A stretch of DNA of 47,887 bases from Methylocystis sp. (GTDB lineage Bacteria > Pseudomonadota > Alphaproteobacteria > Rhizobiales > Beijerinckiaceae): NCBI GenBank assembly GCA_016177005.1, contig JACOWC010000056.1:1-47887 (forward strand), read 5' to 3'. The notes under the pieces are model-generated. The model was not told the origin of the DNA. It saw only the letters and a list, made by a program, of their open reading frames with translations, and searched no databases. A program made the position numbers and the translations under genes. This document shows, in pieces, positions 490-45,434 of the stretch. Position 1 is the first letter of the stretch; each line of letters starts with the position of its first letter.

Positions 490-596
490 CCGTTTCCAGC
501 CTGTCGTTGCCAAATGCAGATAACGGTCGATTCCAAAAGTTTAGAGCGCGCTTTACACGAAAAACCGGATGCTGCTTTTTCCGCGCGCCGCGCTCC
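490..596 (+). repeat. Twin-hairpin palindromic element, copy A (left hairpin degenerate)
   Basis: gcagataacggtcgattccaaaagtttagagcgcgctttacacgaaaaaccggatgctgctttttccgcgcgccgcgctcc matches copies B-E. Confidence 0.75.
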
Positions 597-13700: not shown

Positions 13701-13709
13701 CTTGCAGAC

Positions 13710-14759: not shown

Positions 14760-15901
14760 GACGCAGCCCTCCGTTGTTCGTGTCGGCGAAATCTGCCGTA
14801 AGCCCAATGAGCCGCGCAAGAGCCTTCAGACGACACCATGCACGCGCCCATCGGCGTTTCTGGCGTACACGCGACGCCGAAAAGCTTGCAGTCTTGTGGG
14901 CGCTTCGCCCCGCGCAGAATCGCCCCGCATTCGCAGGCGGGATTGTCGCGCGCCGACTGCGTGACGACGCAGAAGCGTCGCTCGGCGTCGAACTGCGCGT
15001 AAGCGTCGCGCAGCCTGAGCGCGCTGAACGGAATTTCGCCAAGGCCGCGCCATTCGAAGCTCTCGCGCAGCTCGAAGATGTCCTCGATTTCGGCCAGAGC
15101 CTTGCGGTTTCCATCCTCGGCGACGGCGCGACGATACTGGTTCTCGATTTCGCTGCGGCCATCATTGATCTGCCGCACCAGCATCAAGATCGCCTGGATC
15201 ACGTCGAGCGGCTCGAAGCCGGCGATGACGACAGGCTTATGGAAGTCTGTGGCGAAGCGCCGATAGGGCGCCATGCCGATGACGGTCGAGACATGCGCAG
15301 GCCCGACAAATCCCTCGATCTGCACGGCGCCGGGGTCGTTCGCGTCGCAGGACTCGAGAATTGCCTGGATGGCCGAGGGCGTGAGCACATGATTGCAGAA
15401 GACCGAAAAATTGATCAGGTTTTTCTTTTGTGCAAGGCGGATGGCCAGTGCGGTCGGAGGCGTCGTCGTTTCGAAGCCAACTGCTAAGAAGACAACCTGG
15501 CGATTCGGCTCGCTTTCGGCGATCGATATGGCGTCCAGCGTCGAATAGACCATGCGGATATCGGCGCCGTCGGCCTTCGCCTTCAGAAGGCTCGAGCCAT
15601 TGGAGCCCGGAACGCGCATCAAATCCCCATATGTGCAGAGCGTCACTTCTTTTCGCTTTGCAAGGCGGATGGCGTCGTCGATGCGGCCGATGGGCAGCAC
15701 GCACACCGGACAACCGGGACCGTGAATCATACGGATGTTTTCAGGCAGCAAATCCTCGACGCCGTAGCGCGAGATCGCGTGCGTATGACCGCCGCAGAAC
15801 TCCATGAAGCGGTATTCGCGATTCTTTCGCGCCTCCGCGGCGATGCGCCTGGTGACGCCGCGCGCCAATTCGCCGTCGCGGTATTCGTCGACATGTTTCA
15901 T
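14756..15901 (-). CDS. hypD: Hydrogenase maturation factor HypD
   Basis: FMEFCGGHTHAISRYG, IRMIHGPGCPVCVLP, AVGFETTTPPTA. Confidence 0.97.
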   Translation of the reverse strand: MKHVDEYRDGELARGVTRRIAAEARKNREYRFMEFCGGHTHAISRYGVEDLLPENIRMIHGPGCPVCVLPIGRIDDAIRLAKRKEVTLCTYGDLMRVPGSNGSSLLKAKADGADIRMVYSTLDAISIAESEPNRQVVFLAVGFETTTPPTALAIRLAQKKNLINFSVFCNHVLTPSAIQAILESCDANDPGAVQIEGFVGPAHVSTVIGMAPYRRFATDFHKPVVIAGFEPLDVIQAILMLVRQINDGRSEIENQYRRAVAEDGNRKALAEIEDIFELRESFEWRGLGEIPFSALRLRDAYAQFDAERRFCVVTQSARDNPACECGAILRGAKRPQDCKLFGVACTPETPMGACMVSSEGSCAAHWAYGRFRRHEQRRAAS

Positions 15902-16128
15902 GCGCTTGCCTCCAGCTCAGCCGCCTCGCGTAACAGCTCCAAAGTCCGTTGTGCTTCGGATTCGTCGATTTTGGCGAGCGCGTAGCCGACATGCAGTACG
16001 ATGTAATCGCCGACGGTGACGTTCTCGACCAGCGCAATCGAAACGATCTTGTTCACGCCGTCGAGGCTGACGCGGGCCATATCGTCCGGGAGGAGTTCGA
16101 TGACGCGCGCAGGAATAGCAAGACACAT
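15898..16128 (-). CDS. hypC: Hydrogenase maturation chaperone HypC
   Basis: MCLAIPARVIEL...GDYIVLHVGYALAKIDESEA. Confidence 0.96.
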   Translation of the reverse strand: MCLAIPARVIELLPDDMARVSLDGVNKIVSIALVENVTVGDYIVLHVGYALAKIDESEAQRTLELLREAAELEASA

Positions 16129-16143
16129 CGCTTTTCACACCTT

Positions 16144-18402: not shown

Positions 18403-18407
18403 GCCTC

Positions 18408-19376
18408 TTATTTCACGGCCGCCACGCCGGCCTTCGCCCGAATCTGGCGCGCCGCGCGGCCTTCGAGCCATGCATAGAACGCCTGCAAGCCTTCGCCGCT
18501 GCGCGCGGAAACGACCAGAGTTTGCAGATCTGGATTGACCTTCAACGCATTGGCCAGACATAGGCCGACGTCGAAATCGACATGAGGCAAGAGGTCGGCC
18601 TTGTTCAACAGAAGAAGATCGGACGCCGCAAACATCTCAGGATATTTGAGCGGCTTGTCCTCGCCTTCGGTCACCGAGAGAACGACCACCTTATGCGCTT
18701 CGCCGAGATCGAAGGCGGCAGGACACACGAGATTTCCGACATTCTCGATGAACAACAGCCCGCCCTCCGCAAGCGTCAGCTCGTCCAGCGCATGCGCGAT
18801 CATATGCGCATCGAGGTGACAGCCCTTTCCCGTGTTAAGTTGGATAGCCGGCGCGCCAGTAGCGCGAATGCGATCCGCATCGTTGGATGTTTGTTGATCG
18901 CCTTCGATGACGGCGATTGGAAATCGATCCTTCAAGTCGGTGATGACGCGAACCAAGAGCGACGTCTTCCCAGATCCCGGACTTGAGACAAAATTCAGAG
19001 CAAAAGTCCCGGTTTGCGCGAGACGGGCGCGGTTTTCTCGCGCGTAACCATTGTTCTTGGAGAGAATGTCGCGCTCGATGCGAACGATCCGATCTTGACT
19101 GAGGCCGGCGACGTGAACGCCCGCCGGTCCCGCGCCGAAATCGATCGAGGCCGGTTCATGGGCATGACCATGATGATGATCATTCGCTAAGTGGTGAGAA
19201 TGCCCATGATGGTGGGGATGATCATGATCATTGTGATCCGCATGGTCGTGAGGATGTTCATGATCGTGATCATGATCGTGATCGTGGGCGTGACCGCGCT
19301 GTTCATGCGAATGATCGTGTGGACGAGCTTCTTTTCCTTCGGCGCTCGAAGTTCCGCAGCCGCAGACCGTGCACAT
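18408..19376 (-). CDS. hypB: Hydrogenase nickel incorporation GTPase HypB with His-rich N-terminus
   Basis: MCTVCGCG start; His/Asp-rich tract; [12 protein letters not shown]-loop; [16 protein letters not shown]. Confidence 0.97.
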
Positions 19377-19717
19377 CAAACGACCTCCAATTCTTTCACC
19401 CGCATGTCTTCGCCCGCCGTGACTTGGACATGATGCCCGCCGCATTCAGGGCAGGCGCCGAAACGCTCGAGCACTGGAACGGTCTTGCCGCAATCGAGGC
19501 ACCAGCCTTCGCCTGGAACGGCGATGATCTCCAGGCGCGCGCCTTCGACGATGGCGCCTCGCGCAACCGCGTCGAAACAAAATTTAATCGCCTCTGGGTC
19601 GACGCTCCCCAGCGCGCCGATCTCCAGCCGAACCACGCGGACGCGGGCGAACCCCTGCTTGCGGCCTTCTTCCTCGATGAGATCCACGAGGCTTTCGGTC
19701 AGCGCCATCTCATGCAT
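19376..19717 (-). CDS. hypA: Hydrogenase nickel incorporation protein HypA
   Basis: [15 protein letters not shown]...CLDCGKTV...[24 protein letters not shown]. Confidence 0.96.
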
Positions 19718-20846
19718 CGGCGGGCTCCATCACCTCGACGCGAAAGGCGACGCAAGGGTCAAACAAACTGGCAAGCCGCACAATCGACTGGCGGGCGTCG
19801 CCTCGCGCGATCCGCGCGCCAAGCAGCGCCGCCACGAATGGGCCAGCAGGATGAAAGTTCCACTCCGTTGGCGCAACGATCGCATAGTCGCTGATTTTAT
19901 CGTCCGATGTCAGCCGCGCCCAATGATACAATTCGCCGCGCGATGTTTCGACTACAGCAAAACCCTCGCGCAAAGTCGGAGCTACGCTTCTGCCATAGGG
20001 TTCGATCGCGTCGCCAGCCCCGGCGCGGGACAATCGCTCCAGACATCGCGCAATGTCGATCATGCGCGCCTGCAGGCGCGCGGGCAAGGCGCCGCCAGAA
20101 AGATCGACGTCACGCCAGTGACGCGAGAAGGCTCCGGTCTCGGGCGTGCGGCCGGCAAGCCCTGGCGTCGCGGCGAAGCGTTCGCCGTTCCGCCGCAGTC
20201 CATCGAGGATCGCCGCATCGTCCTCGGCTGCGAGCGCATCGGGAACGCTCGCGGCAAAGCCTCGATCGCCTTCCATCTCTTTCCACAGTCGGCCAAACCA
20301 GGAACTTTTGCTCGGCGGCGCAGATTCAGGACGCGTGGGAAGACCAAGTTCGTCGGCGACAGCGCGAATGCGCTCGATCAGAAGCGTTACAGCGGCGTTC
20401 GGGGCTCTTGCAGAAGGGTTGGCAGCAGCGAGGACCGTGAGCTCTCGCGTGAGCGACAACACTTCTCGCATTGGTCGAATGGCCATTTCATCGAGAGCGA
20501 AAGCGTCGCCTCTTTTCGCGGTCGACGTTATGCAGGAGCGTAGGGTCTCGCTCAAGCGTTCGCAGAGAAGTCCGATTGTCTGCGGCGCGCGCTCGACGGC
20601 GGGAGCCTCGCCGCGCGCCGCCGCGACGGCGTGGGTCGCGGCCATGGCGTGCGAGAGCCCGCAGAGCGAATAGAGTCGTTCGGCGAGCGCCGGTATTTCT
20701 TGAGCGGGACGGCCAATGAACAAACGCGTAAGCTGCGTCGGTCGCGACGAAGCGATGCGGACCGAGCAAATGCGACGGTCGGCGACTTCCGCCACAATCG
20801 AAATTGTGCCAGGCCCCAGCGCTCCGAAGCTGATTGGCGCGTTCAT
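19710..20846 (-). CDS. hupK: Hydrogenase assembly protein HupK (large-subunit-like)
   Basis: Large-subunit-like C-terminus (GELYHWARLTSDDKISDYAIVAPTEWNFHPAGPF...SLFDPCVAFRVEV) lacking the full CxxC ligands; position in hup operon. Confidence 0.85.
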   Translation of the reverse strand: MNAPISFGALGPGTISIVAEVADRRICSVRIASSRPTQLTRLFIGRPAQEIPALAERLYSLCGLSHAMAATHAVAAARGEAPAVERAPQTIGLLCERLSETLRSCITSTAKRGDAFALDEMAIRPMREVLSLTRELTVLAAANPSARAPNAAVTLLIERIRAVADELGLPTRPESAPPSKSSWFGRLWKEMEGDRGFAASVPDALAAEDDAAILDGLRRNGERFAATPGLAGRTPETGAFSRHWRDVDLSGGALPARLQARMIDIARCLERLSRAGAGDAIEPYGRSVAPTLREGFAVVETSRGELYHWARLTSDDKISDYAIVAPTEWNFHPAGPFVAALLGARIARGDARQSIVRLASLFDPCVAFRVEVMEPADA

Positions 20847-21355
20847 AGCGCAGCTTCTCCGTTCAGCTCTTGCCGGCGTCGTCCGCCGAACAAGGCGCGG
20901 CGGTCGAGGCCGCTGCGCGCCGAAGACTTTTCCTGCGAGGCTTCGTGCAAACGTGAATCAAAGAGAGCGTCGAGCGCCGCCAACGCCGCCAGACGCGCGG
21001 AGTCCTGATCCGCGAATTCGGACATAGGCGAAAACAAGGAGCAGGAGGCGAAGCGTCCGAAGCCGTCGAGTTCGCTTACGTTGAAATCGACATCGCCGGC
21101 CGGAAATCGCAAACACAGCCGCGAGACGTTGGGGAACAGACTCGGCCAGTCGTCGACGTGCGGCGCGACGGCGACGAGGTTTGCGAACCATGGAGTAACG
21201 ATGACGCCAACGGCATATCCGTCGAAATCGCGAAAGCCGAATGCTTCGACCGCAAGCGCGTCGTTGCAGATCGGGACGCCGCTCATCGCCGTGCGGTGGA
21301 TTTCGCGATAGAGTTCAGCGAGTGTCGCGCCCGCCGCATGAGCGTTGGCGTTCAT
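20843..21355 (-). CDS. hupJ: [NiFe]-hydrogenase assembly chaperone HupJ/HybE family
   Basis: MNANAHAAGATLAELYREIHRTAMSGVPICNDALAVEAFGFRDFDGYAVGVIVTPWFANLV; ATGA-type overlap with hupI. Confidence 0.88.
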   Translation of the reverse strand: MNANAHAAGATLAELYREIHRTAMSGVPICNDALAVEAFGFRDFDGYAVGVIVTPWFANLVAVAPHVDDWPSLFPNVSRLCLRFPAGDVDFNVSELDGFGRFASCSLFSPMSEFADQDSARLAALAALDALFDSRLHEASQEKSSARSGLDRRALFGGRRRQELNGEAAL

Positions 21356-21549
21356 GGCGGCAACGCCAGGAATTTTTCGCGCGGCGCATCGCATACGGGA
21401 CAACGCCAATCCGGGGGCAGGTCGGCGAAGGCGACGCCGGCCTCGATTTGCCAGACAGGATCGCCTTCGGCGGGATCGTATACATGCCAGCAGACCCCGC
21501 ATTCCATGCGCCTTTCCGGCGGGATCAATTCGGGCGCCGCGTCGTTCAT
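21352..21549 (-). CDS. hupI: Rubredoxin HupI
   Basis: MECGVCWHVYDPAEGDPVWQIEAGVAFADLPPDWRCPVCDAPREKF (two CxxC rubredoxin knuckles). Confidence 0.95.
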   Translation of the reverse strand: MNDAAPELIPPERRMECGVCWHVYDPAEGDPVWQIEAGVAFADLPPDWRCPVCDAPREKFLALPP

Positions 21550-22406
21550 GTGAAATAGGCCTCTTGAATTTCCCACAGACGTTCCGCCGAGTCGCGAAAA
21601 TCGTCGTCAGCCGCGCAGGCCGCAGCAGGCACGTCGCCGATTTCCAGCGTGTCGAGGATGACCGCGTTCGAGGCGTTGAAGAATTGCACCGACCAGACGT
21701 TGCGCGCGCCCGTTGCGGTGATCTTGCAGGAGCCATAGCCGCGCGAAATCAACTGCACGGGGCCGTCGCCGAGGGTCTGCTGCAAGAACGCCATGTCGAT
21801 GTCCGATACCGGGAGCAGCGAGAAATTGATCGTGTGCGAGGGATCGCCTGCGTGATGCGCGTTCATGCGATCGCCAATCTCCGTGAGCAACGGCATGACG
21901 TTCATCGCGCCGGCGGGCGCGGCGCCGAAGGTAAGCCGATTGGCCGTGAACGCCGCCGCGCGTTTGACGACCTCAGGGATGACGCCGATCTCGAGGTAGT
22001 CTGCGGAGAGCTTTCCGCCGGCGTCCAGAAAGCGAATCCGCCAAAGGCCGGCCATGGAGGCTTCCTGAATCTGAGCGATAACGCCGTCAGGAAGAGCCGC
22101 GACGCCGCTCACCTCGCCCTGGCCAAGAACCTCAGTCAGCAACTCGCGATCGTCGTCCTCGTAATCGGTAATGTCGAATAGACGGCTTGGCGATGCTGCG
22201 CTCTGGCGCTGTAGCGCTTCAGCGAGCAGAGGAAGCAGCGCCGCGGCGCGCGGACAACGGGCGATCAATTGCTCGCCGCTGCCGGTCGCGAGAAGGGAGA
22301 CGGCTCCCGTCGCCCGTCGTGCGTTTGTCGTATCTTCGCAAGCCAGCGGCAGCAACGTTATCGCTTCGTCGGCGCCCTCCGGCGCGATCCAGAATCCAGC
22401 TTTCAT
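21546..22406 (-). CDS. hupH: Hydrogenase expression protein HupH
   Basis: 286 aa; SRGYGSCKITATGARNVWSVQFFN typical of HupH/HyaF; operon position. Confidence 0.88.
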   Translation of the reverse strand: MKAGFWIAPEGADEAITLLPLACEDTTNARRATGAVSLLATGSGEQLIARCPRAAALLPLLAEALQRQSAASPSRLFDITDYEDDDRELLTEVLGQGEVSGVAALPDGVIAQIQEASMAGLWRIRFLDAGGKLSADYLEIGVIPEVVKRAAAFTANRLTFGAAPAGAMNVMPLLTEIGDRMNAHHAGDPSHTINFSLLPVSDIDMAFLQQTLGDGPVQLISRGYGSCKITATGARNVWSVQFFNASNAVILDTLEIGDVPAAACAADDDFRDSAERLWEIQEAYFT

Positions 22407-22855
22407 TCCACAGCTTCCCGGCCTGAGAATGTGAATTGCACCCGCGGCTCTGAGGCCGCGGCAAGAAGCGGCGCATCAGGCCGCAGCAGCGTTTCGATCC
22501 GCGCGAGATAATCCGACCAGTCGTAAACCTTCGGCAGGACGGCGAGCGGTTCGCGCCCGCGCGTCACGACGAGACTGGGAAAGACGCAGACATTGAACCT
22601 GCTCTTCAGAGCCTCTTCGGCGGCGCGCGCGATGATCGCCGCGCGCAGCCGGCCCGCAAAAGCTTCGACGAGTTGCGGTAGAATGATCGCGACGTCATGG
22701 GTTTCGCTGCGTTGAGCCGGATCGCCAGCGAAAAACAAGATCGCATGCGCGGCTTCGCCATGCGCCGACTCCAGAAAGGCGTCGATTGACGTCTCGTCGA
22801 TCGAAACTACGCCATGAATCTCGCTCAGCGCCTGCAACTGAGGGAACGGCATCAA
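22403..22855 (-). CDS. hupG: HupG/HoxO/HyaE thioredoxin-fold assembly protein
   Basis: HAILFFAGDPAQRSETHDVAIILPQL...FNVCVFPSLVVTRGREPLAVLPKVYDWSDYL; SD gggagga upstream. Confidence 0.82.
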   Translation of the reverse strand: MMPFPQLQALSEIHGVVSIDETSIDAFLESAHGEAAHAILFFAGDPAQRSETHDVAIILPQLVEAFAGRLRAAIIARAAEEALKSRFNVCVFPSLVVTRGREPLAVLPKVYDWSDYLARIETLLRPDAPLLAAASEPRVQFTFSGREAVE

Positions 22856-22884
22856 GCTCCTCCCTTGTTCTTTTCTTGGTCACG

Positions 22885-22899
22885 GCAATTGGCGTGCCA
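22885..22899 (-). promoter_or_regulatory. Putative sigma-54 (-24/-12) promoter upstream of hupG
   Basis: Minus strand reads TGGCACG-CCAA-TTGC, an exact TGGCACG-N4-TTGC consensus, about 30 nt upstream of the hupG ATG. Confidence 0.75.
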
Positions 22900-23040
22900 T
22901 GGAAGTTCTGTGGGGATGGTTATGCAAATAGCTGAATTGCAAAGAAATTTACCACCGCCGATGCGCTTGGTCCACAAGAAATTGGAAAGGAATTATCCAG
23001 TTCTGGTTAGTGCTCGCGCAAGCCCAGCTTTTCTAATGCC

Positions 23041-23334
23041 TCATTGTCGCAGGAAGTCTGGGAGCTGCGGCTCGCGGTCGACCAGATCGGCAAAGCGATG
23101 ATCGACGTTTTTGCCCGTCAAGGCCTCCTGCACGGCATCGAGCGCGTCATCGATCTGCTGCGCCTCGAGATCGTCGAGCAGGCGCACGGCCGAGTCGAGA
23201 TGCACCAGCACCTTGGCGCCCGCCGGCTGCGCGCCGAGGAGCAGCATCGAGACGCGCTGCGTCTCGCCGCGCCGTTCGCAAAGCGCTTCGAAGGCGTCGC
23301 CTTCCAGTATCGTCATCGGGAATCCGATGCACAT
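23041..23334 (-). CDS. hupF: HupF (HypC paralogue, large-subunit chaperone)
   Basis: MCIGFPMTILEGDAFEALCERRGETQRVSMLLLGAQPAGAKVLVHLDSAVRLLDDLEAQQIDDALDAV. Confidence 0.92.
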   Translation of the reverse strand: MCIGFPMTILEGDAFEALCERRGETQRVSMLLLGAQPAGAKVLVHLDSAVRLLDDLEAQQIDDALDAVQEALTGKNVDHRFADLVDREPQLPDFLRQ

Positions 23335-23355
23335 TTTTAATTTCTCGGAAGTCGT

Positions 23356-23583
23356 TCAACGCATGCGCGAGCCGCTTCGCGACAAAAGTAGGCGTCCGGC
23401 TGCATAGACGAACGTTCCTGCCCATGTGGCGACGAGCGCCATGGCGAGAAGATGATCGGGCTGAGTGAGGGCATGGACAAGACTCCAGTACAAATTCCCC
23501 CCATGCGAACCGGGATGCGCTTGAGCCGCCGCCGGAATGAAAAATGATCCCGTCAAGATGGCGCGTTGGATGATCTTGCTCAC
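23356..23583 (-). CDS. Short HupE/UreJ-like membrane protein (mini HupE)
   Basis: 75 aa: signal peptide ...AQAHPGSHGGNLYWSLVHALTQPDHLLAMALVATWAGTF, resembling only the N-terminal region of HupE. Confidence 0.6.
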   Translation of the reverse strand: MSKIIQRAILTGSFFIPAAAQAHPGSHGGNLYWSLVHALTQPDHLLAMALVATWAGTFVYAAGRLLLSRSGSRMR

Positions 23584-23587
23584 TTTC

Positions 23588-24184
23588 CTAGTCTCCCCGT
23601 CGATGAGCGATAGCCGGCGATGCGCGTCGCTCGTAAGCGTGGTGGTCGATATCGTTCGCCAGCAATCGCTCGGAACCGGTAGTCCGCAAAGGCCGTGAAC
23701 GGCACTCGACGCCCCAATCGCCGAGCGTTTGAAGCGCAGCGGTCAGAGCCGGCTCGATCGCCGCGCGCACCGGCGCGGTCAGCGGTCCGCCCCAATCCTC
23801 GAGATCGAGCGGCTGACAACCGACCAAGGCCAGACGCGAAGGATAACGGCCGAGCAGATCCGCGGCGCTCAGAACCTCCTGAAAGCCTGTTTGATGCAGG
23901 CTCATTTTCTTCGCGCCGGTGAAACACGGCACCGCCTCGTCGCGCACGACGCGCAATGTTCCGGGCTCCAGCCCATAGTCGATCGCGTCGAAGACCAGCA
24001 GCTGATCGCAAGCCTCGACGAATTGCACGAGGTAGAGACCTTGCGTGCCGCCGTCGAGCACGACGACATCTTCACCCGTGTCGAAGCGCGCGTGGAACTC
24101 TTCGACCGCGCGCACGCCGAAGCCTTCGTCGGCCCAAAGGATATTGCCGATGCCGAGAATGAGGGTGCGTGGCTTATCGCTCAT
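23588..24184 (-). CDS. hupD: Hydrogenase maturation endopeptidase HupD
   Basis: LILGIGNILWADEGFGVRAVEEFH...VLDGGTQGLYLVQFVEACDQLLVFDAIDYG. Confidence 0.96.
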   Translation of the reverse strand: MSDKPRTLILGIGNILWADEGFGVRAVEEFHARFDTGEDVVVLDGGTQGLYLVQFVEACDQLLVFDAIDYGLEPGTLRVVRDEAVPCFTGAKKMSLHQTGFQEVLSAADLLGRYPSRLALVGCQPLDLEDWGGPLTAPVRAAIEPALTAALQTLGDWGVECRSRPLRTTGSERLLANDIDHHAYERRASPAIAHRRGD

Positions 24185-24205
24185 GCCGACGACCCCGCGA
24201 GCGCA

Positions 24206-24295
24206 GACCCGTCATTGCGAGCGAAGCGAAGCAATCCTGGGGCCGCCCCACGGCTCTGGATTGCTTCGTCGCTGCGCTCCTCGCAATGACGGGTC
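24206..24295. repeat. Palindromic intergenic repeat (gacccgtcattgcgag...ctcgcaatgacgggtc) between hupD and hupC
   Basis: gacccgtcattgcgagcgaagcgaagcaatcc / ggattgcttcgtcgctgcgctcctcgcaatgacgggtc are inverted arms with a short insertion. Confidence 0.88.
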
Positions 24296-24307
24296 GAATT
24301 GCCGGCC

Positions 24308-25033
24308 TCATTCGTCATGCTCGTCGCGGAAGGTGCGTTCGCCAGAAATCATCGCGGAGATCATGCTCTGGCGCGAGACGATATCTTCGCGCACGGCGGA
24401 ATAGATATGAACGATCACGAAGACGACGACGAGCCACATGCCGACATGATGCCAAGTATGTATGTCTTGACTGTTTGGCCAGATCGCGAACACCCAGCCG
24501 AACAATTTGAACTGCCAGCTGTCGCGGCCCGCTCCTTCCGAATAGAGCGCGAAGCCTGTCACCACCATGAACGCCAGCAACAGCATGAACGCGAACATCG
24601 CGACATGCGCCAGCGGATTGTGTCCAATATATTTTTGCGGCCGCGCGACGAGAAACAGATACCAGCGCAGCTCATAGAAGACGCCCCAGAGCCATTTGCG
24701 GTCCCAGAGCGGCAGATAAAATATCTGCCGCGCATAGGTGTTGCCGGCGAGAGCCCAATAGAGACGCAGCAGCAAACCGGCCACCAGCACATAGCCCGCG
24801 GCGAAATGCGCGAAGCGGATGTAGCCCATCAGGAAATTGGCGCTCGCTTCGCCGGGCGTCGAAGGCAACGGCGAAGCGATGAAAAAGCCCGTCAGCGCCA
24901 GAACGATGATCGCCAATGCGTTGACCCAATGCCAGAGCCGCACGGGCGCTTCATAGACATAGACCGTTTGCAACGGCGCGGCGCGTTCGCCGTGGCCATC
25001 CAACACGCCGTGGATCTGCGTCGCCTCAGTCAT
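24308..25033 (-). CDS. hupC: Ni/Fe-hydrogenase b-type cytochrome subunit HupC
   Basis: VYVYEAPVRLWHWVNALAIIVLALTGFFI...IHIYSAVREDIVSRQSMISAMISGERTFRD. Confidence 0.95.
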   Translation of the reverse strand: MTEATQIHGVLDGHGERAAPLQTVYVYEAPVRLWHWVNALAIIVLALTGFFIASPLPSTPGEASANFLMGYIRFAHFAAGYVLVAGLLLRLYWALAGNTYARQIFYLPLWDRKWLWGVFYELRWYLFLVARPQKYIGHNPLAHVAMFAFMLLLAFMVVTGFALYSEGAGRDSWQFKLFGWVFAIWPNSQDIHTWHHVGMWLVVVFVIVHIYSAVREDIVSRQSMISAMISGERTFRDEHDE

Positions 25034-25053
25034 GAGGATTTTCTCCATAAGGG

Positions 25054-26844
25054 TCAGCGCACCGAGATTTTGGCCATCTCCTGCCCATCTTCGCTCATCA
25101 CATGAGTCGAACAGGCAAGGCACGGATCAAAGGAATGAATGGTGCGCAGGATTTCGAGCGGCTTTTGCGGATCGGCCAGCGGCGTATCCATCAGCGAGGC
25201 TTCAAACGCGCCGATATTGCCTTTAGGGTCGCGCGGACTTCCGTTCCAGGTGGTTGGCACGACGCATTGATAATTGTCGATCTTGCCATCCTTGACTTTG
25301 ACCCAGTGCGCGAGCGCGCCGCGCGGCGCCTCGGTGAAGCCATAGCCCTTGGCGTCCTTTGCCCAGGAATCGGGCTTCCACTTGTCGACATTGGCCGTCG
25401 AGGAATCGCCCGCTTTGATATTGGCGATCAGCTTGTCCTGGAAGTGCTTGAGCTTCCTTGCGGCCCATTGACACTCGAGCCCGCGCGCGGCGGTGCGGCC
25501 GAGCGTGGAGAACAGCGCCGTGACCGGCAGGCCAAGCGTTTTCAACAGTTGGTCGGTTGGCTCCTTGAACTCGGGATTGCCCTGCGCATAGCCGATGACA
25601 AAGCGCGCAAGAGGACCAACCTCAACGGCGTTGCCGCGCCAGCGCGGCGACTTGATCCAGGAATATTTGCCGCCTTCGTCCAATTCTTGAATGTTTGTCG
25701 GCGTGCCTTTCGCCGCCGGCCCCAATTTGTAATTGGGTTCGGTGACGCCGTCCCAAGGATGAAGGCCCTTTGTCTCGTCTGGGTATTTGTACCAGGAGTG
25801 CGCGACGAATTCCTGGATTTGCTCCGGATCGGCATGATCGATCGGGAAAACTTCTGCGAGATTGCCGTTGAGGATCACGCCGCGCGGCAACAACAGATTC
25901 TTCGCCGAGTAATCGTTGGCGTTCTCGGGAATGTCGCCATAGCTCATGACGCTCTTGCCGGACAGCCCGCCGCCATAGAGCCAGCCCTTGTAGAAGGAAG
26001 CGATGGCGGCGAGATCGGGCAGGTAGACTTTTTCAACGAATTCGATCGAACGATCGATGATGGAGTTCACCTCGTTGAGGCGCTCCATATTGATCGCGCC
26101 GACCGCTCCGGTCCCATCGACGTTGATCGCGCAGGGAACGCCGCCGACGAGCCAATTCGGATGCGGATTCTTGCCGCCGTAGATCGTGTGGATTTTGACG
26201 ATTTCTTTTTGGAAATCCAGCGCCTCAAGATAATGCGCGACAGCCATCAAATTGGCTTCCGGCGGAAGCTTGTAGGCGGCGTGTCCCCAATAGCCGTTCT
26301 TGAACGGCCCTAGCTGACCCGAGTCGACGAATTTCTTGAGGCGGATTTGCAAATCCTTGAAATAGCCGGGCGAGGACAGAGGCCAATCGGAAATCGACTG
26401 CGCGAGCGCCGATGTCGCCTTGGGATCGGCGGAAAGCGCCGACACGACATCGACCCAGTCGAGCGCATGCAGATGATAGAAATGCACGAGATGATCATGC
26501 ACCTGCAATGTCAGTTGCATGATGTTGCGGATCGAATTGGCGTTCTCTGGAATGGAAATGCCGAGGGCGTTCTCGACGGCGCGCACCGAGGTCAAAGCGT
26601 GCGTGCCCGTGCAAACGCCGCAGATGCGTTGCGTAAACGCCCAGGCGTCGCGCGGATCGCGGCCACGCAGAATGATCTCGATGCCGCGCCACATCGTGCC
26701 GGTGGAGACGGCGTTGCGGATGACATTGTTCTTGTCGACATTCACCTCGACGCGCAAATGTCCTTCGATACGGGTCACCGGATCGACGACGACGCGTTTG
26801 CCGGAATTGTCGAGATTGAAGCCGTTCGGCGTCTGAATGCCCAT
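25054..26844 (-). CDS. hupL: Uptake [NiFe]-hydrogenase large subunit HupL
   Basis: [26 protein letters not shown] (L1), [26 protein letters not shown] (L2 plus cleavable C-terminal extension). Confidence 0.98.
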
Positions 26845-26918
26845 GATTGCGTTTCCTCGAGGATCAGCCGTTGCGGTCGGCGTCTTTGGTGTTCGTCTCG
26901 GACGGTCGGGTGAAGGAT

Positions 26919-27040
26919 CCCTCATCTGAGGAGGGCCCGAAGGAGCCCGTCTCGAAGGAGGAAAGCTTCATGCGCGGCCATGCTAGTGCTCGCCCTCGCG
27001 CTTCGGGGACGCCCGCTGCGCGGGCTCCTCTACATGAGGG
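26919..27040. repeat. Palindromic intergenic repeat (ccctcatctgaggag ... ctcctctacatgaggg) between hupS and hupL
   Basis: Inverted outer arms, with internal gggcccgaaggagcccgtctcgaagg and cttcggggacgcccgctgcgcgggctcc. Confidence 0.8.
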
Positions 27041-27046
27041 CGAAGG

Positions 27047-28129
27047 TTACGACTCCTTGCTGTCGCGCTTCGTCGTGATGCGCTTGACGGCGGTCACGGC
27101 CGCATGCGCGGCGACCGCGGCTCCCACGACGCCGACAGCGGCCAACCCAACCTCGTCGGCGTTATGTTCAATGCCGAATTGCTTGATGTTGCTCAGGCGC
27201 TCGTAGAACGGACCCTTGTCCCAGAAACCCTCTTCGGAGCAGCCGATGCAGCCGTGGCCCGATTGAATGGGGAAAGACACGCCGCCGTTCCAGCGCACGG
27301 TCGAACAGGCATTGTAAGTCGTGGGGCCTTTGCATCCCATCTTATAGAGGCAGTATCCCTTGCGCGCCGCCTCATCGTCCCATTCCTCGACGAATTGCCC
27401 GGCGTCGAAATGTGGACGGCGGTAGCACTTGTCGTGGATGCGTTGCGAATAAAACATTTTCGGCCGACCCTGCCGATCGAGCTCGGGCAAACGTCCGAAA
27501 GTGGTGATGAAGGTGACGACGCCGGTCATGACTTCGGCGATCGGCGGACAGCCGGGCACTTTGATGATCGGCTTGTTTGTGATGACCTTGTCGATCGGCG
27601 TCGCTTGCGTCGGATTGGGTTTCGCCGCCTGCACGCAGCCCCAGGAGGCGCAAGCGCCCCAGGCGATGATCGCATAGGCGTCCTCGGCCATCCACTTCAG
27701 CTTCTCGACGAAAGGCTTGCCGCCGTCGATGCAGAACATGCCGCCTTCGTTGAGGGGCGGATTGCCTTCGACGGCGAGGATATATTTGCCCTTATATTTT
27801 TCCTTGGTCTCTTCGAGGATCGCCTCGGCCTGATGGCCCGCCGCCGCCATGATCGTATCGTCATAGTCGAGCGAGATCATCGACAGCACGACGTCTTTGA
27901 CCAAGGGATGCGCCGAACGGATGAAGCTCTCCGAGCAGCATGTGCATTCCAGCCCGTGCATCCAGATCACCGGAACGCGCGGATTGGTTTCCAGCGCCTT
28001 GGCCATGGCGGTGGCGGCGCTCGATCCCAGTCCGAGGCTGGCGGCGGTGAGCGAACAGAATTTGGTGAAGCTACGGCGCGTGACGCCCTGTCGACGGATC
28101 ACATCATAGAAGGTTTCGTGAGCGGCCAT
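27047..28129 (-). CDS. hupS: Uptake [NiFe]-hydrogenase small subunit HupS (Tat signal, ECTCC and CASWGC motifs)
   Basis: [11 protein letters not shown] Tat motif; [43 protein letters not shown]-terminal membrane anchor. Confidence 0.98.
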
Positions 28130-28194
28130 GTCCTCACCCGTAACTTGTCTTGCATGGCAGCATTCATTCGCTGACGCCGCCTGCGCATTTGAGC

Positions 28195-28209
28195 GCAAGA
28201 AGCGGGCCA
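28195..28209 (-). promoter_or_regulatory. Putative sigma-54 (-24/-12) promoter upstream of hupS
   Basis: Minus strand reads TGGCCCG-CTTC-TTGC, correct 15-nt architecture, about 66 nt upstream of the hupS ATG. Confidence 0.65.
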
Positions 28210-28324
28210 GATCGGAACGATTGCAAACTGAAGGCGTTTTGCGGCGATTGACGCGGCTATCGGCTCGAGATGCGCGATCGATTCGTGAAAATTACTTTTC
28301 CAGTTGCGGTAACCGGATAGCCAG

Positions 28325-29776
28325 TCAATGCGCCGTGCAGACCATGCACGGATCGAAAGAGCGCACGATGTGCTGCACTGCAATATTCGACGCTCCGTCG
28401 CCTCCCACCTCGAGGCCTTCGAGCGCGAATTCAAGCGGTCCCGGCGTTCCGTTGGCGTCGCGCGGCGAAAAATTCCAGGTCGTCGGGGCGATGATCTGAT
28501 AGCGCAGGATTTGTCGGTCGCGAATGCTGGCCCAATGGCCCAGCGTCCCGCGCGCCGCCTCGACGAAGCCGACGACGGCGCCGTTCTGAAGCGGCGCATC
28601 ATGCGCGCAAAAACGGTCGTTCAACTGCAACGAACGCGTCCACGTTTCTGCTGCCTTGGTCAGGAGCGCGATCTCAAGCAGGCGCGCGACGATACGCGCG
28701 AGCACATTTGTCGCTCCGGCCCGCCGCAACAAATCCTTGATCAACGGATGGCCGGCGACGCCCTGGCGCGCCAGCGCGCCAACTTCGACCGGCCGGCCGT
28801 CCAATCGCGGCGCTTTTGCAAAGGAATACGCATCTTCTCGCCGCATGTCGGGAATGGTCTCAGCGTTCGCCGGATCGCTTGCCGTGTCGCGCATCCACGC
28901 ATGCGACACATCCTCGCGAATCGCGTCGAAGGGAAGCGCCCGCGCCTCGCCGTCGGCGACGTTGAAGAGACCGGCGGGAAAGAGATGCCCTTCAGGCCCG
29001 AGATAAGCGCCGCTCGACATCAACAGACCTGGGCCGCGGCCCATTTCTTCCAGCTTTAGATCGCGCGCGATTCGAAGCAGAGCGGCGAAATCTCCAGCGG
29101 CGCCCGCGCCTTCAACGAAGGCTTCGAGCGCCTCGCAGGACGCAAGTTCGATCACGGTCTCGATGGGCGCGGCGAACAGCGCCCTTTCGACAAAACCGCG
29201 AAACTCGGCAAGCAAAGCGATGAGCCGCATCTGGCCGCTAAGATCAATCGCCCGGGTTACGCCTCCAGGCCGAAAAGCCAAGCTGTGCGGCCATTTGCCG
29301 GCGATGAGCCCCATGGTCTCGAGGAGACGCGCGCGCGCCGGCAGCGCCTCGCGCAAACTCTCTCCCGACATCGCCTTGAACCGCCGCTCGATCGCAGGAT
29401 GCCAAGATCGCGCCGCATAAGAGGCGCGCGCGAAGTCCGGCATGAAGAAGACGTAGAAGTGAGTGAGATGATCGGCGATGTTTTCCGCCGCATGCGCGAT
29501 ATTCGTCGTCAGCAGGCCGTTTGGCGCCGCCTCCAGATTTTGCGCCGCGCGCAGCATGGCTGCGGCGGCCAATGATTGGGAGACGGAACAGATGCCGCAG
29601 ATGCGCGGCGCGATCGCCAATGCGTCCTCGGCCGGTCGCCCGATCAGGAGTTGCTCAAAACCGCGATAGAGCGGGGCGGTGACGCGCGCCTGACGCACGA
29701 TTCCGCTCTCAACGTCGAGCGTAACTTCCAGATCGCCTTCGACGCGATTGAACGGGCCGATGACGATGCGGTTCAT
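28325..29776 (-). CDS. hupV: Regulatory (H2-sensing) hydrogenase large subunit HupV/HoxC
   Basis: MNRIVIGPFNRVEGDLEVTLD...RICGICSVSQS...SFDPCMVCTAH at the extreme C-terminus (no cleavable peptide). ORF-list entry extends upstream; ATG at 29776 overlaps the hupU stop. Confidence 0.93.
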   Translation of the reverse strand: MNRIVIGPFNRVEGDLEVTLDVESGIVRQARVTAPLYRGFEQLLIGRPAEDALAIAPRICGICSVSQSLAAAAMLRAAQNLEAAPNGLLTTNIAHAAENIADHLTHFYVFFMPDFARASYAARSWHPAIERRFKAMSGESLREALPARARLLETMGLIAGKWPHSLAFRPGGVTRAIDLSGQMRLIALLAEFRGFVERALFAAPIETVIELASCEALEAFVEGAGAAGDFAALLRIARDLKLEEMGRGPGLLMSSGAYLGPEGHLFPAGLFNVADGEARALPFDAIREDVSHAWMRDTASDPANAETIPDMRREDAYSFAKAPRLDGRPVEVGALARQGVAGHPLIKDLLRRAGATNVLARIVARLLEIALLTKAAETWTRSLQLNDRFCAHDAPLQNGAVVGFVEAARGTLGHWASIRDRQILRYQIIAPTTWNFSPRDANGTPGPLEFALEGLEVGGDGASNIAVQHIVRSFDPCMVCTAH

Positions 29777-30777
29777 CGTTGCTTTTCTGCGGTCGGCGGC
29801 GCCTCGACGCGATCGGAGCGTGAATTTTTGCGAACCCGCTTCGGCGTCGCGGATTTCGACAAGGCCGCCAAAGCGACGAACCACGCCTTCGGCATGTCGA
29901 GCGGCAATCCGACCGGTATGCCGCCGACCTTCGGCGTCTGGTGATACCCGCGCATATTTTCGAACCCGGGCGAGGTGCAGGCGATGCAGGTCGATCCAAC
30001 TTGCGTGCAGGAGCCGCCGCCATTCCATGGCCGCTGGTTGCAATCGCCAACCGCTTGGGTCGCCTTGCATCCAAGATGCTCCATGAGACAGCCGCGCTCT
30101 GAAAAATGCTCGGCGCTCGCTTTGAACTCGTAGAATTCGTTGCGACTGCAACCGTGATGCGCCAGATGGTCGGCGAAGAGACGCGGTCTGCCGAACCTGT
30201 CCAAATCCGCTTGCGTGAAACGACCGAGCGACAACGCCAGCAGCGTCTCCATGATCCAGCCGGGATGCGGCGCACAGCCCGATACATTGATGACCGGCAG
30301 GCCCGCGCGCGAAAGATAATCGGCGCCGAGCGCTCCGCCGGGCTCGCTTGCGTGGAACTGCACGCCGCTGGCGTCGGTCGGATTGGGCGCGCCGGCCGGA
30401 ACGCCGCCGAAAGCGGCGCAGCTCCCGATGGCGACGCAATAATCGGCCAGCGGCGCCAGCGCCCTGACCCATTCCAGCATGCTTCGCCCGGTTCCGCTGA
30501 GCCTGTTGAACAGGCCAGATCCGTCCGGACCGTGCAACACCGATCCTTCAATGCATAGCGCGTCGAGCTTCAGCTCTCCGCGCTCGACTCGTCCCATGAT
30601 GGTTCGAGCTTCCTCGCCGGTTTCCTCGCTCACGCTCGGGTGCCAGAGCAACTCGACGCCGAAATTGCGCAGTTCTTCGAACCAGCCGGACGCGCCGCTT
30701 TCGAGAACCGACATTGTGCAGCCCCCGCAACCGCCAGCCTGTAGCCAGAGCACCGTGAACGGACTGCTGCGCTTCAT
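29773..30777 (-). CDS. hupU: Regulatory hydrogenase small subunit HupU/HoxB
   Basis: VLWLQAGGCGGCTMSVLESG with no Tat leader; CAAFGGVPAGAPNPTDA. Confidence 0.93.
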   Translation of the reverse strand: MKRSSPFTVLWLQAGGCGGCTMSVLESGASGWFEELRNFGVELLWHPSVSEETGEEARTIMGRVERGELKLDALCIEGSVLHGPDGSGLFNRLSGTGRSMLEWVRALAPLADYCVAIGSCAAFGGVPAGAPNPTDASGVQFHASEPGGALGADYLSRAGLPVINVSGCAPHPGWIMETLLALSLGRFTQADLDRFGRPRLFADHLAHHGCSRNEFYEFKASAEHFSERGCLMEHLGCKATQAVGDCNQRPWNGGGSCTQVGSTCIACTSPGFENMRGYHQTPKVGGIPVGLPLDMPKAWFVALAALSKSATPKRVRKNSRSDRVEAPPTAEKQR

Positions 30778-31014
30778 GTTCCCATTCGACCCGCTCGACA
30801 GAAGCGCTCATAGAAGCCGAGGTTAAACATCTTCGCAAGCGCTGCGGATGCGTTGCATTGTCCAACCGGCCGATTGAGCGACGTTTTGGGGCTTCTGATG
30901 GCGTTCGGCGTCTGGCGCTTTAGCGTTGCTGCGACGGCGCTCATCGAATGCGAATTCGGAAAGTGAAAGAATATTCATATATTTTCGCTGGAGACATACG
31001 CAAGGACCGACGCC

Positions 31015-36549: not shown

Positions 36550-36668
36550 TTAGATCACGCTGCGTTTAGGCGAATCGCCTGAACGCGGATGACGTGATCG
36601 ATTCCAAAAACTTAGAGCGCGCTTTACGCGAAAAACCGGCGTCCACTTTTTCGCGAGCCGCGCTCTGG
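36550..36668 (+). repeat. Twin-hairpin palindromic element, copy B
   Basis: ttagatcacgctgcgtttaggcgaatcgcctgaacgcggatgacgtgatcgattccaaaaacttagagcgcgctttacgcgaaaaaccggcgtccactttttcgcgagccgcgctctgg. Confidence 0.92.
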
Positions 36669-36743: not shown

Positions 36744-37520
36744 ATGGCGTTGGAAGTCGCGCAGTTCATCTGCCTCAACGATAATTTCGGCCTGCTCGTC
36801 CATGAGCCGGAGCTCGGCGCGACCGCAAGCGTCGACGCGCCCGACGGCGAAGCGATCGCCAATGAGGCCGAGCGGCGCGGCTGGCCGCTGACGCATCTGC
36901 TGCTCACGCATCATCACGCCGATCACGTGCAGGGAACACAGACGCTCAAAACGCGCTTTCCGCACATGAAGGTCATCGGCGCCGCCAAGGATGCGCATCG
37001 ACTGCCGCCGCTCGATCGCGCGGTTTCAGAAGGCGACGTCGTCGAAATCGGCGAAGCGCGCGCGCGCGTCATCGAAACGCCCGGCCATACGCTCGGACAT
37101 ATCGCCTATTACTTCGAGGACGATGAAATCGTGTTTGTCGGCGACACGCTGTTCTCGCTCGGCTGCGGACGCGTTTTTGAGGGCACCATGGACATGATGC
37201 ATCTCACCCTCGAAGCGCTCGCCAATTTGCCCGGGGAAACGCTGGTCTATTGCGGCCACGAATATACCCAGGCGAACGCCAAATTCGCGCTCACCGTCGA
37301 CCCCGAAAATTCGGTGCTGCGCGCGCGGGCGCAAACCGTCGCCGATCTGCGCAAGGACGGAAAATTTACCCTGCCGACGACGATCACGCTCGAGAACGCC
37401 ACAAATCCGTTTCTGCGGGTCGAGGATCCGAGCGTAGCGGCCGCGATGGGCATGCGGGGCGCGGACCCTTCCGCGGTTTTCGCGGCGATGCGCGAGCGCA
37501 AGAACAAATTCGCCGCATGA
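36744..37520 (+). CDS. gloB: Hydroxyacylglutathione hydrolase (glyoxalase II)
   Basis: THLLLTHHHADHVQGTQTLK...ETPGHTLGHIAYYFEDDEIVFVGDTLFSLGCGRVFEGT. Confidence 0.95.
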   Translation: MALEVAQFICLNDNFGLLVHEPELGATASVDAPDGEAIANEAERRGWPLTHLLLTHHHADHVQGTQTLKTRFPHMKVIGAAKDAHRLPPLDRAVSEGDVVEIGEARARVIETPGHTLGHIAYYFEDDEIVFVGDTLFSLGCGRVFEGTMDMMHLTLEALANLPGETLVYCGHEYTQANAKFALTVDPENSVLRARAQTVADLRKDGKFTLPTTITLENATNPFLRVEDPSVAAAMGMRGADPSAVFAAMRERKNKFAA

Positions 37521-38086
37521 CGGGCGCGCTTTCGACGCAGGAGGTGGTGCGGCTTCTCGATCTGGCGCCCCATCCCGAGGGCGGCTTCTATCGCCAGACG
37601 TTTCGCGATTCCTCGTCGGTGGGCGGCGGCCGCGCCGCCTCGACGGCGATCTATTATCTGCTCTCCGGCGGCGGAGTCTCCGCCTGGCATCGGGTCGACG
37701 CCGCCGAAGTCTGGCACTTCTACGCCGGCGCCACGCTGGAGCTTAAGATCGCGACGTTAGATCACGCTGTGTTTAGGCAAAATCGCCTAAACGCAGATGA
37801 CGTGATCGATTTCAAAAGTTTAGAGCGCGCTTTGTGCGAAAAACCGGATTCCACTTTTTCGCAGCGCGCTCCAGGCGCGCCGACCGAAATCCTGCGACTT
37901 GGCGCCGAGCTCGGCGCTGGCGAGCGGCCGCAAGCCGTGGTCCCCGCAGGCGTCTGGCAGTCGGCGAAAAGTCTCGGCCGGGGTCCCGACGAATGGACTC
38001 TCGTCGGCTGCACAGTGGCGCCGGGCTTCGAATTCGCCGGCTTCGAACTGGCGCCGGCGGATTTCTCGCCCGACTGTTCAGCTTGA
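37517..38086 (+). CDS. DUF985-type cupin protein carrying an in-frame palindromic-element insertion
   Basis: MTGALSTQEVVRLLDLAPHPEGGFYRQTFRDSSS...VWHFYAGATLELKIAT-[LDHAVFRQNRLNADDVIDFKSLERALCEKPDSTFSQRA]-PGAPTEILRLGAELGAGERPQAVVPAGVWQSA. The ORF-list entry starts upstream at 37250; ATG at 37517 overlaps the gloB stop. Confidence 0.9.
   Translation: MTGALSTQEVVRLLDLAPHPEGGFYRQTFRDSSSVGGGRAASTAIYYLLSGGGVSAWHRVDAAEVWHFYAGATLELKIATLDHAVFRQNRLNADDVIDFKSLERALCEKPDSTFSQRAPGAPTEILRLGAELGAGERPQAVVPAGVWQSAKSLGRGPDEWTLVGCTVAPGFEFAGFELAPADFSPDCSA
37757..37872 (+). repeat. Twin-hairpin palindromic element, copy C (in frame inside the DUF985 cupin)
   Basis: ttagatcacgctgtgtttaggcaaaatcgcctaaacgcagatgacgtgatcgatttcaaaagtttagagcgcgctttgtgcgaaaaaccggattccactttttcgcagcgcgctcc. 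Confidence 0.95.
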
Positions 38087-41989: not shown

Positions 41990-44050
41990 CTATTCCGCTG
42001 CGATTACCCGCGGCGGCGTGAAGGCAATTTCGATCAGCGTGCCTTCGTTACGACTGCTCTTGACGCTGAAGGAGGCGTGATTCGCCTCGATCAAAGCCTT
42101 TGTCAGCGGCAGTCCAAGCCCCGTGCCGCTCGCCTTGCGCGCAGTGTCCACCCGCCGAAACGGTTCGAGCGCGGTTGCGACATCCTCCTCCGACATGCCG
42201 ATCCCGGTGTCCTTGACGCGAATGACGACAGCGCCGGCGTCATTGAGCGCGCTCGATACGATGACCTGCCCGCCCGGTTCGTTGAACTTCACCGCGTTCG
42301 ACAGAAGATTGAGAAGGATCTGCTTTAGGGAGCGCGGATCGGCGCGCAGCGGCGGCAGGCTCGGCGCAAGCGCCAAGCGCAAGACGACGCGCGCCTGATT
42401 GGCCTGCGCCTGCATCATCGACGCGCATTCGGCGATAACCGCATTGGCGTCCACGCGCGCGAAGGAAAGCTCCATCATGCCGGCTTCGATCTTGGAGAGG
42501 TCAAGAAGATCGTTGACGAGCGACAGGACATGCGCGCCGGAGGCGTGCATGTCCTTCAAATATTCTTTGTAGCGCGGAGAGCCGAGCGGCCCGAGACGCT
42601 CTTCCATCATCACTTCGGCGAAGCCGATGATGGCGTTGAGCGGCGTGCGAATCTCATGCGATACGCGGGTGAGAAAATCGGATTTCGCCGCATTGGCGCT
42701 TTCGGCGGCAAGCCGCGCCGCTTCAACCGCGGGGTCGCTTGAAGAGGCGCCTTCTTGCGCCTCGACCGACACGAGGAAGGTCGGTTTTCCCTCGACGGCA
42801 AGCGGGCGCAGCGCGAGGTCAACGGGAGCGCCGCCGGGCGGCGCCCGGGACAATGACAGTCGCGCGCGCGCGCCCGATAGAGCGCGCTGCGAAAAAGCTG
42901 AATCCGGTTTTTCGTCATCCGCACTTGGGCGATTCCGCTCAAATGCAGCGTGATCCAAAACCACGGACATGCGCTGAGCCAGGCTCTGCGCGTCGGAGGG
43001 GCTGAGGAGAGAGGCCAGACTGCGGTTCTCGCAGTCGCGCGCATCGGCGCCAAAGCATGCCGCGAACCGCGCATTGGCCCTCACGATCATTCCCTCAGCG
43101 GTCATGATCGCCAGCGGCGCGCCCGACAGGTCGAAAGCCGCGCCAAGCAGCGCGTTGTCCGATTTCGCCCGCGCGAGCCTCTCTTCGAGCGCGCGAGCGA
43201 GCGCCAAGGCGCTTTGCTCCGGACCCGGGGCGAGAAGTTCGCGGTTGCGCGGCGGCGTGGTCGGTTGATGCGTCTCCGGCGTGTCTTGTTTCGATTCGAG
43301 AGTGGCGGCCGCGTCCGACGCAATGATGCCGCCTTCCTTGAGCGTTCGCGCGATTTCATCGAAAGCCAATCGCTCGCTCGAGCTGAGCGACTCCAGCGCG
43401 TCCGATGCGACGCGCGGAGAAGATGGCGCGCGCAGCGCTACGACGTTGTCCCCTGACGCGCTAAAGGCGCTCCCTTCAGAGTTCGAAGCGCCGACAGCCT
43501 CCGCCGGCGGCTCGGCGGCGCCGCGCAATTCTTGCGCAGGCGAATCTGCGCGAACGCCGAGCGCCGCGATAACGAAAGAGACGCCGCTCTCCGTCTCCAG
43601 GCTGCGGCAAAGAAAGCTGAGCGTTTGCGCCGCGCCCACGAAGCCAAAGCGCAGTCGTTCAAGGCGCAGGCCCTGGTCGCTGCGCAGTTCGCCGACAAGC
43701 GCCGCCAGTCGGCGTGCGCCGGCATCGTCGTCGCGCAACAAGCGCTCGCCTGGAGCGCTTTCCGACCGGACGGAATCGTCTAGTCGATAAGAAATCGCTC
43801 CAGATTCAAAATGCTGGAGCAAAATCTTGTCGAAAAAGTCTATCAACTTTTTCGGATTTTGCTCTAGCGCTCCTACGTCCTCGCCAAAGACGGCGCAGGC
43901 TGAATCGTTGAGAAAATCGATGCGCAGGGGATCGCCGCTGGCGACGACGACCGGCGCGCCGGAGGCGTCAAGAGCAGAAAAAACAGGATCAGCCGCGACG
44001 CAAGCGGCTGCGCGCGCGCTGTGTTCGAGCTCCTCTTGCGAACCGCCCAT
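41990..44050 (-). CDS. PAS-domain hybrid-less sensor histidine kinase with two palindromic-element-derived inserts
   Basis: FLTRVSHEIRTPLNAIIGFAEVMMEERLGPLGSPRYKEYLKDMHASGAHVLSLVNDLLDLSKIEAG; LLNLLSNAVKFNEPGG; GTGLGLPLTKALIEANHA. Likely start MGGSQEELEHS at 44050; the ORF extends to 44149. Confidence 0.88.
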   Translation of the reverse strand: MGGSQEELEHSARAAACVAADPVFSALDASGAPVVVASGDPLRIDFLNDSACAVFGEDVGALEQNPKKLIDFFDKILLQHFESGAISYRLDDSVRSESAPGERLLRDDDAGARRLAALVGELRSDQGLRLERLRFGFVGAAQTLSFLCRSLETESGVSFVIAALGVRADSPAQELRGAAEPPAEAVGASNSEGSAFSASGDNVVALRAPSSPRVASDALESLSSSERLAFDEIARTLKEGGIIASDAAATLESKQDTPETHQPTTPPRNRELLAPGPEQSALALARALEERLARAKSDNALLGAAFDLSGAPLAIMTAEGMIVRANARFAACFGADARDCENRSLASLLSPSDAQSLAQRMSVVLDHAAFERNRPSADDEKPDSAFSQRALSGARARLSLSRAPPGGAPVDLALRPLAVEGKPTFLVSVEAQEGASSSDPAVEAARLAAESANAAKSDFLTRVSHEIRTPLNAIIGFAEVMMEERLGPLGSPRYKEYLKDMHASGAHVLSLVNDLLDLSKIEAGMMELSFARVDANAVIAECASMMQAQANQARVVLRLALAPSLPPLRADPRSLKQILLNLLSNAVKFNEPGGQVIVSSALNDAGAVVIRVKDTGIGMSEEDVATALEPFRRVDTARKASGTGLGLPLTKALIEANHASFSVKSSRNEGTLIEIAFTPPRVIAAE
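42879..42958 (-). repeat. Twin-hairpin palindromic element, copy F (shortened, in frame inside the histidine kinase)
   Basis: Minus strand ttggatcacgctgcatttgagcggaatcgcccaagtgcggatgacgaaaaaccggattcagctttttcgcagcgcgctct; lacks the 36-nt central segment of copy C. Confidence 0.88.
43752..43872 (+). repeat. Second-type twin-hairpin palindromic element, copy G (in frame inside the histidine kinase)
   Basis: ggagcgctttccgaccggacggaatcgtctagtcgataagaaatcgctccagattcaaaatgctggagcaaaatcttgtcgaaaaagtctatcaactttttcggattttgctctagcgctcc; two hairpins with the same GAAT loop and CGAAAAA/TTTTTCG arms. Confidence 0.85.
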
Positions 44051-44126
44051 GTGCCCTACACCGCCGCGACCGATGGCCGCTCGCCGCGCGCCTGTCAGGC
44101 GTCTCTCGCCCCGACGCCGATCGCGC

Positions 44127-44230
44127 CGCCTTTGGGCGGAATCGCCCAAGGGCAGATAACGTGATCGATCTCAATAGCTTAGAGCGCGCGCTCACGCGAA
44201 AATCCGGTTTTTTCCTTTTCGCCGCGCTCC
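44127..44230 (+). repeat. Twin-hairpin palindromic element, copy E
   Basis: ccgcctttgggcggaatcgcccaagggcagataacgtgatcgatctcaatagcttagagcgcgcgctcacgcgaaaatccggttttttccttttcgccgcgctcc. Confidence 0.88.
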
Positions 44231-45313: not shown

Positions 45314-45434
45314 TTTAGAGCGCGGCTCGCGAAAAAGTGGATGCCGGTTTTTCGCGCAAAGCGCGCTCTAAGCTTTTGGAGTCGATCACGTCATCTGCGT
45401 TTAGGCGATTCCGCCTAAACGCAGCGTGATCTAG
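45314..45434 (-). repeat. Twin-hairpin palindromic element, copy D (inverted orientation)
   Basis: Reverse complement ctagatcacgctgcgtttaggcggaatcgcctaaacgcagatgacgtgatcgactccaaaagcttagagcgcgctttgcgcgaaaaaccggcatccactttttcgcgagccgcgctct. Confidence 0.95.

Follow-up and report, generated by a model that had tools for sequence, protein, structure and literature searches.

Several families of small palindromic repeats come close to the element described here. Rickettsia palindromic elements (RPE) and their Wolbachia equivalent are palindromic repeats of 105-150 bp that are fused in frame to unrelated genes, which are kept working (PMC2229807, PMC10969869). RUP, from Streptococcus pneumoniae, is an IS630-Spn1-type MITE of about 107-114 bp, with a TA duplication, more than 100 copies, and IS630-like ends; all six of its frames contain stops, and its copies are found between genes (PMC2229807). 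ERIC, the 107-bp form of Correia, and the Coxiella QMITE1/2 are also MITEs, which occasionally form in-frame fusions (PMC10969869, PMC2229807, PMC5896051). In-frame fusion of palindromic MITEs is already known, above all for RPE. In the Rhizobiales, RIME are intergenic and made of two palindromes. These Rhizobium-specific intergenic mosaic elements are named in PMC2573895.

The DNA that we analyzed, hereafter the window, is a whole stretch of 47,887 nt from Methylocystis sp. (contig C171 of an assembly that is 65% complete). Its first-pass annotation had pointed out a mobile palindrome inside two unrelated genes, a histidine kinase (copy F) and a cupin (copy C), and had proposed either that selection keeps the element translatable or that in-frame insertions alone survive. 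We confirmed that both copies are one element, in the same orientation and reading frame and with the peptides quoted there, and the 36-nt difference in length between them was recovered against orthologues (net 78 versus 114 nt). The repeat origin is real and not due to chance, as a 26-nt core pattern gives 50 matches in the own genome and its reversed control 0. The interpretation is supported in part, for in-frame survival but not for selection for translation. Two things had been overlooked, i.e., a second palindrome, E2, in the same kinase, and the fact that most gene contacts of the first one, E1, are at native stop codons (Table 1).

We conclude that E1 is very probably an IS630-type MITE targeting YTAR, whose surviving copies are intergenic, at rebuilt stop codons, or in one reading frame. 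Like RPE, to which it is likened by description, E1 is a palindrome found in frame in unrelated protein genes; it differs from RPE, again compared by description, by its host group and its sequence, by a TA/CTAG target that is shown here, by contacts that are mostly rebuilt stops, and by most copies being untranslated. In size, TA duplication, and a copy number above 100, E1 is like RUP, with which it may also share IS630-like ends; it differs from RUP by its single open frame and by the rebuilding of stop codons. With RIME, compared by description, it shares the order Rhizobiales, the intergenic location, and the two palindromes. As for ERIC, Correia, and QMITE1/2, the accessible parts of their sources describe, unlike what is seen for E1, no systematic targeting of stop codons. 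In the literature searched, mostly outside subscription journals, we found no description of stop-codon rebuilding by a MITE, and the combination of insertion into native stops, a stop rebuilt at both ends, and one open 38-codon frame appears to be unreported there. Where such a mobile palindrome survives would depend on the target sequence, on the ends and length of the element, and on its single open frame, and the known range of protein-coding palindromes is extended from Rickettsiales to free-living methanotrophs.

Table 1. Palindromic copies and host genes in the window
Feature	Coordinates	Strand	Description
E1 copy A	510..596	+	partial, intergenic
E1 copy B	36551..36665	+	intergenic
Host cupin (DUF985) gene	37517..38086	+	
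E1 copy C	37758..37871	+	in-frame insert within Cupin_5 gene, net +114 nt = 38 codons
Host histidine kinase gene	41990..44050	-	from domain profiles and orthologue alignments; stop codon at low end
E1 copy F	42878..42957	-	in-frame insert within histidine kinase gene, net +78 nt = 26 codons
E2	43753..43866	-	second in-frame insert of the kinase gene, net +114 nt = 38 codons; translated as EQNPKKLIDFFDKILLQHFESGAISYRLDDSVRSESAP
E1 copy D	44117..44229	+	diverged; upstream of kinase start
E1 copy E	45316..45433	-	intergenic, complete, both TA present; two long hairpins, fold z -8.0

Structure, target and TA duplication of E1

We surveyed about 230 E1 copies in three Methylocystis genomes, i.e., the own genome, a near relative, G001, which is 99% complete, and G007, made of two contigs (100 copies listed out of 111 pattern matches). 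E1 consists of a 112-nt core with two hairpins, located at the TA of a YTAR target, and the inserted unit is 114 nt long, or 38 codons. Aligned copies read YTA, then GATCACGCTGC and onwards to GCGCTC, then TAR. The two hairpins are strong (fold z -8.0), two large palindromes are present, and the repeats at the ends are imperfect (TAGATCACGCTGC and TAGAGCGCGMTGC). The target logo, obtained from 135 copies of two genomes, is YTA...TAR, with C or T at position -3 at a frequency of 0.94-0.95 and A or G at position +3 at 0.80-0.83. The flanks amount to a palindromic target close to CnCTAGnG, of which TA is the only part common to both ends; TA is present at both ends in 62 of the 135 copies and at either end in 74-86%. 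Counting one TA, the copies of G007 are mostly 114 nt long (49/76), and those of the own genome 116 nt (23 copies) or 114 nt (16 copies). Tandem copies in G007 follow one another with a period of 114 and TA in common, and sites that are cleanly empty, in the own genome (L158) and in G001 (L372), have just one TA. Evidence against this picture comes from the insert in the squalene synthase gene (L127, G000:C28), where the right junction is GATCACG, not TA, and the target in the relatives contains no TA. The right flank of that insert, GATCACGCCGC (GAGGGCGCCGC in the relatives), resembles the start of a second E1 and might be what is left of a tandem dimer. A tandem array of G007 (L244, G007:C1 about 2547506-2547859), with a period of 114 nt, has one open frame throughout.

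IS630 is known for duplicating a TA within CTAG (PMC2170065; Tenzen and Ohtsubo 1991, cited therein). Both the TA duplication and the YTAR/CTAG target are found for E1, which supports its membership in the IS630 group. One IS630-family IS of G007 has ends identical to both E1 ends at 19/25 positions and is flanked by YTA...TAG; among the IS630 copies of the own genome, none matched the E1 ends. By its behavior, E1 is like a non-autonomous IS630/Tc1-mariner-type MITE, and its ends suggest that it would be moved by an IS630-type transposase. It seems improbable that E1 is instead a REP/RIME-type palindrome with another mover (e.g., a RAYT tyrosine transposase) and with incidental TA/CTAG ends. 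Its double-palindrome form does recall RIME, and its hairpin core, AAGTGGANNCCGGTT, is present in 33 of 81 Rhizobiales genomes (G026, G076, G093, and others), with up to 101 copies in one of them, but the 2-nt TA duplication, the palindromic CTAG target, and the single-TA empty sites fit IS630 and not REP/RAYT. In G026, several of these cores form short arrays in which they follow one another at about 55-65 nt. No Rfam family reached threshold for the element, and a terminator scan showed no clear excess (8 found, 6.4 expected).

E1 copies at native stop codons

The survey material was made of the stretches around the E1 copies, and the coding state was decoded on each side of every copy by a home-made Markov gene finder trained on these stretches; this took the place of a simple score of codon usage, computed over flanks fixed at 240 nt, which was too weak. 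We counted full-length copies and the genes running into the element with a posterior of at least 0.9. Sixty genes were found in this way to meet a full-length E1, some truncated genes possibly being hidden among one-sided or opposite-strand contacts: 46 stop at the terminal TAG of the element, 12 read through, one stops inside, and one stops before. In a few copies, this terminal stop is TAA instead of TAG. Random phase would give one third of the genes stopping at the terminal TAG, against which 46/60 has a P of about 3e-12. Convergent genes stopped at both ends of one copy are also found, e.g., on C147 and on C62 of G001.

For ten own genes that end at the TAG of an element, we looked for the C-termini in G001, G012, and G018. 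In nine cases, all readable orthologues end with an identical last residue; the tenth is off by 1-3 residues. The copies at these ten stops therefore sit in native stop codons, which E1 rebuilt. The stops of the orthologues are mostly TAA or TAG, usually preceded by C or T, and where a copy of G001 sits in a stop (C79), the empty site of the own genome has TAG at that place. Two of the ten genes have TGA, without TA, in all their readable orthologues, and an extra step is therefore needed there.

By definition, a YTAR site read in the TA-x phase is a TAA or TAG stop codon. E1 enters the TA of such a site (preferably CTAG), doubles this TA, and adds 114 nt; with both of its ends starting with G after TA, a TAG is rebuilt at either end and the protein is left unchanged. 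Elements other than E1 that target TA and continue with G or A are predicted to accumulate at stop codons. In three genomes (G000:C161, G001:C12, G012:C14), one and the same gene appears to carry E1 at its stop codon, through an ancestral or a repeated insertion.

One open frame in the read-through copies

The 12 read-through genes all cross E1 in one orientation and in one open frame, the sense frame NTA GAT CAC..., with their phase kept, and on either side of the copy the sequence remains coding and in phase. This supports the survival of in-frame insertions only; a peptide spanning such an insert is, for example, SLERALREKPDSTFSQR. The read-through ORFs of C27, C66, and C161 were dropped, their flanks not being coding in that frame. 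In the own genome, the hosts encode a squalene/phytoene synthase, a Cupin_5 protein, an autoinducer-binding regulator, and an unknown protein; in G001, a glycerol-3-phosphate dehydrogenase, a leucyl-tRNA synthetase, and an error-prone DNA polymerase. Those of G007 are, for full-length copies, a glycosyltransferase, a Y-family polymerase-like protein, a histidine kinase, and an unknown protein, and, for a shorter E1 copy, a hydrolase. Two more in-frame hosts are the window kinase (copy F) and a response regulator of C172, in which the copy is close to the start. The absence of E1 from orthologues was established for the kinase, the cupin, and the squalene synthase, and via the profile for leuS. 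E1 is found in frame, in the manner of RPE, in several unrelated and otherwise conserved genes.

The sense frame is open in 37/59 own copies and 57/76 copies of G007 (94/135), and its antisense counterpart in 12 copies of each (24/135). The remaining frames are open less often than the sense frame, with at most 23/59, a count reached in the own genome by one antisense frame. As only one frame is open in most copies, the survivors necessarily use it, and the 12:0 orientation bias (P 0.07 given frame availability) is largely explained by frame availability. In the surveyed stretches, YTAR occurs 215 times as x-TA, 227 times as xxT-A, and 103 times in stop codons, with one site outside these phases; the corresponding numbers for CTAG are 45, 14, and 29. 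Twelve open versus one closed differs from the availability of YTAR (P 0.002) and shows no significant departure from that of CTAG (P 0.28), so that the frame rule comes partly from the target itself and partly from the loss of damaging insertions. In the x-TA phase and the sense orientation, an E1 open from end to end and 3n long adds 38 codons to the gene in a fixed frame, while in the xxT-Axx phase the frame is closed and such insertions would be lost. What purifying selection would leave are copies between genes, in stop codons, or in the one frame; those of the kinase and the cupin would be x-TA survivors, copy F having also lost 36 nt. This would give a quantitative reason for the same-frame translation of one palindrome in unrelated proteins.

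Could the E1 peptide be useful to the host or to the element, the open frame being maintained by selection in all copies? In each of two genomes, most copies have one frame open despite the differing consensus, and the pooled shared changes look rich in synonymous ones in one set (79 seen, 55 expected). However, this pooled signal corresponds to subfamily structure, and most copies are untranslated. Moreover, among the private substitutions of copies that are not read through, which are of modest number (40-71 changes per set), synonymous, replacement, and stop changes equal the simulation in every frame. With neither a synonymous excess nor a lack of stops, the private mutations of non-genic copies show no codon-like constraint; the selection to be translatable advanced by the first-pass annotation is not supported, we hold a useful peptide to be very unlikely, and the peptide is probably close to neutral. 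A MITE lineage could also have evolved gene-neutrality, with end TAGs that rebuild stops and a 3n open frame that makes x-TA copies translatable; we regard this as possible, though doubtful. If true, a gene-neutral MITE could spread in a gene-dense genome at almost no cost.

That the hosts are decaying genes tolerating any insert, with a common frame by coincidence, is the least credible reading. The window kinase, with two inserts and without a PAS-like stretch of about 100 residues found in its orthologues, might suggest it, but its catalytic domains are intact, and the flanks of read-through copies have stayed coding and in phase. That intragenic copies occur in pseudogenes alone does not hold, as leuS of G001 is one of the hosts. 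In this 99% complete genome, it is the only leuS above the cut-off, and it carries E1 in frame in a 922-aa ORF, in which E1 splits the profile match between profile positions 239 and 238. Decay is refuted for leuS, unless the assembly misses a second leucyl-tRNA synthetase. The fusion in this essential gene is a ready test of how a protein tolerates a sudden insert of about 38 residues.

The two window hosts and the sister palindrome E2

In the cupin, the Cupin_5 profile matches end to end, spanning the insert of copy C, whose core is 37760-37871 and which is absent in every cupin orthologue found in other genomes. The core of copy F (42880-42955) is flanked by TA (42878-42879) and by CA (42956-42957); the latter is a decayed TA, and a former TTA codon would today be TTG. 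Copy F is without 36 nt from the middle of the element, and its net 78 nt were read directly by alignment against L039-L041. Orthologous kinases, which the first-pass annotation had proposed to check for the insert, number about 20 from Methylocystis/Methylosinus, and they lack it. The start of the kinase is likely the ATG at 44050, and its PAS, HisKA, and HATPase_c domains are all intact. The predicted structure has a mean pLDDT of 61.6, too poor for a fold search, with values mostly below 50 for the E2 insert and of 50-70 for the E1 insert. The PAS-like stretch of about 100 residues is missing at about 43519-43522 and lies in orthologues between ADSPAQELRG and AAEPPAEA. Elsewhere in the window, at about 13700-30800, ORF translations reveal a long cluster of [NiFe]-hydrogenase and maturation genes.

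The E2 insert of the window kinase is also missing from orthologues. E2 has 24 copies in the own genome, two of which are 99-100% identical to the kinase E2 across 73-75 nt. Its plan matches that of E1, with TAG ends and a 112-nt core in the kinase copy. At another locus (L142, G000:C70 about 3760-3996), E2 and E1 lie end to end with one TA in common, as if one element had used the CTAG end of the other as its target.
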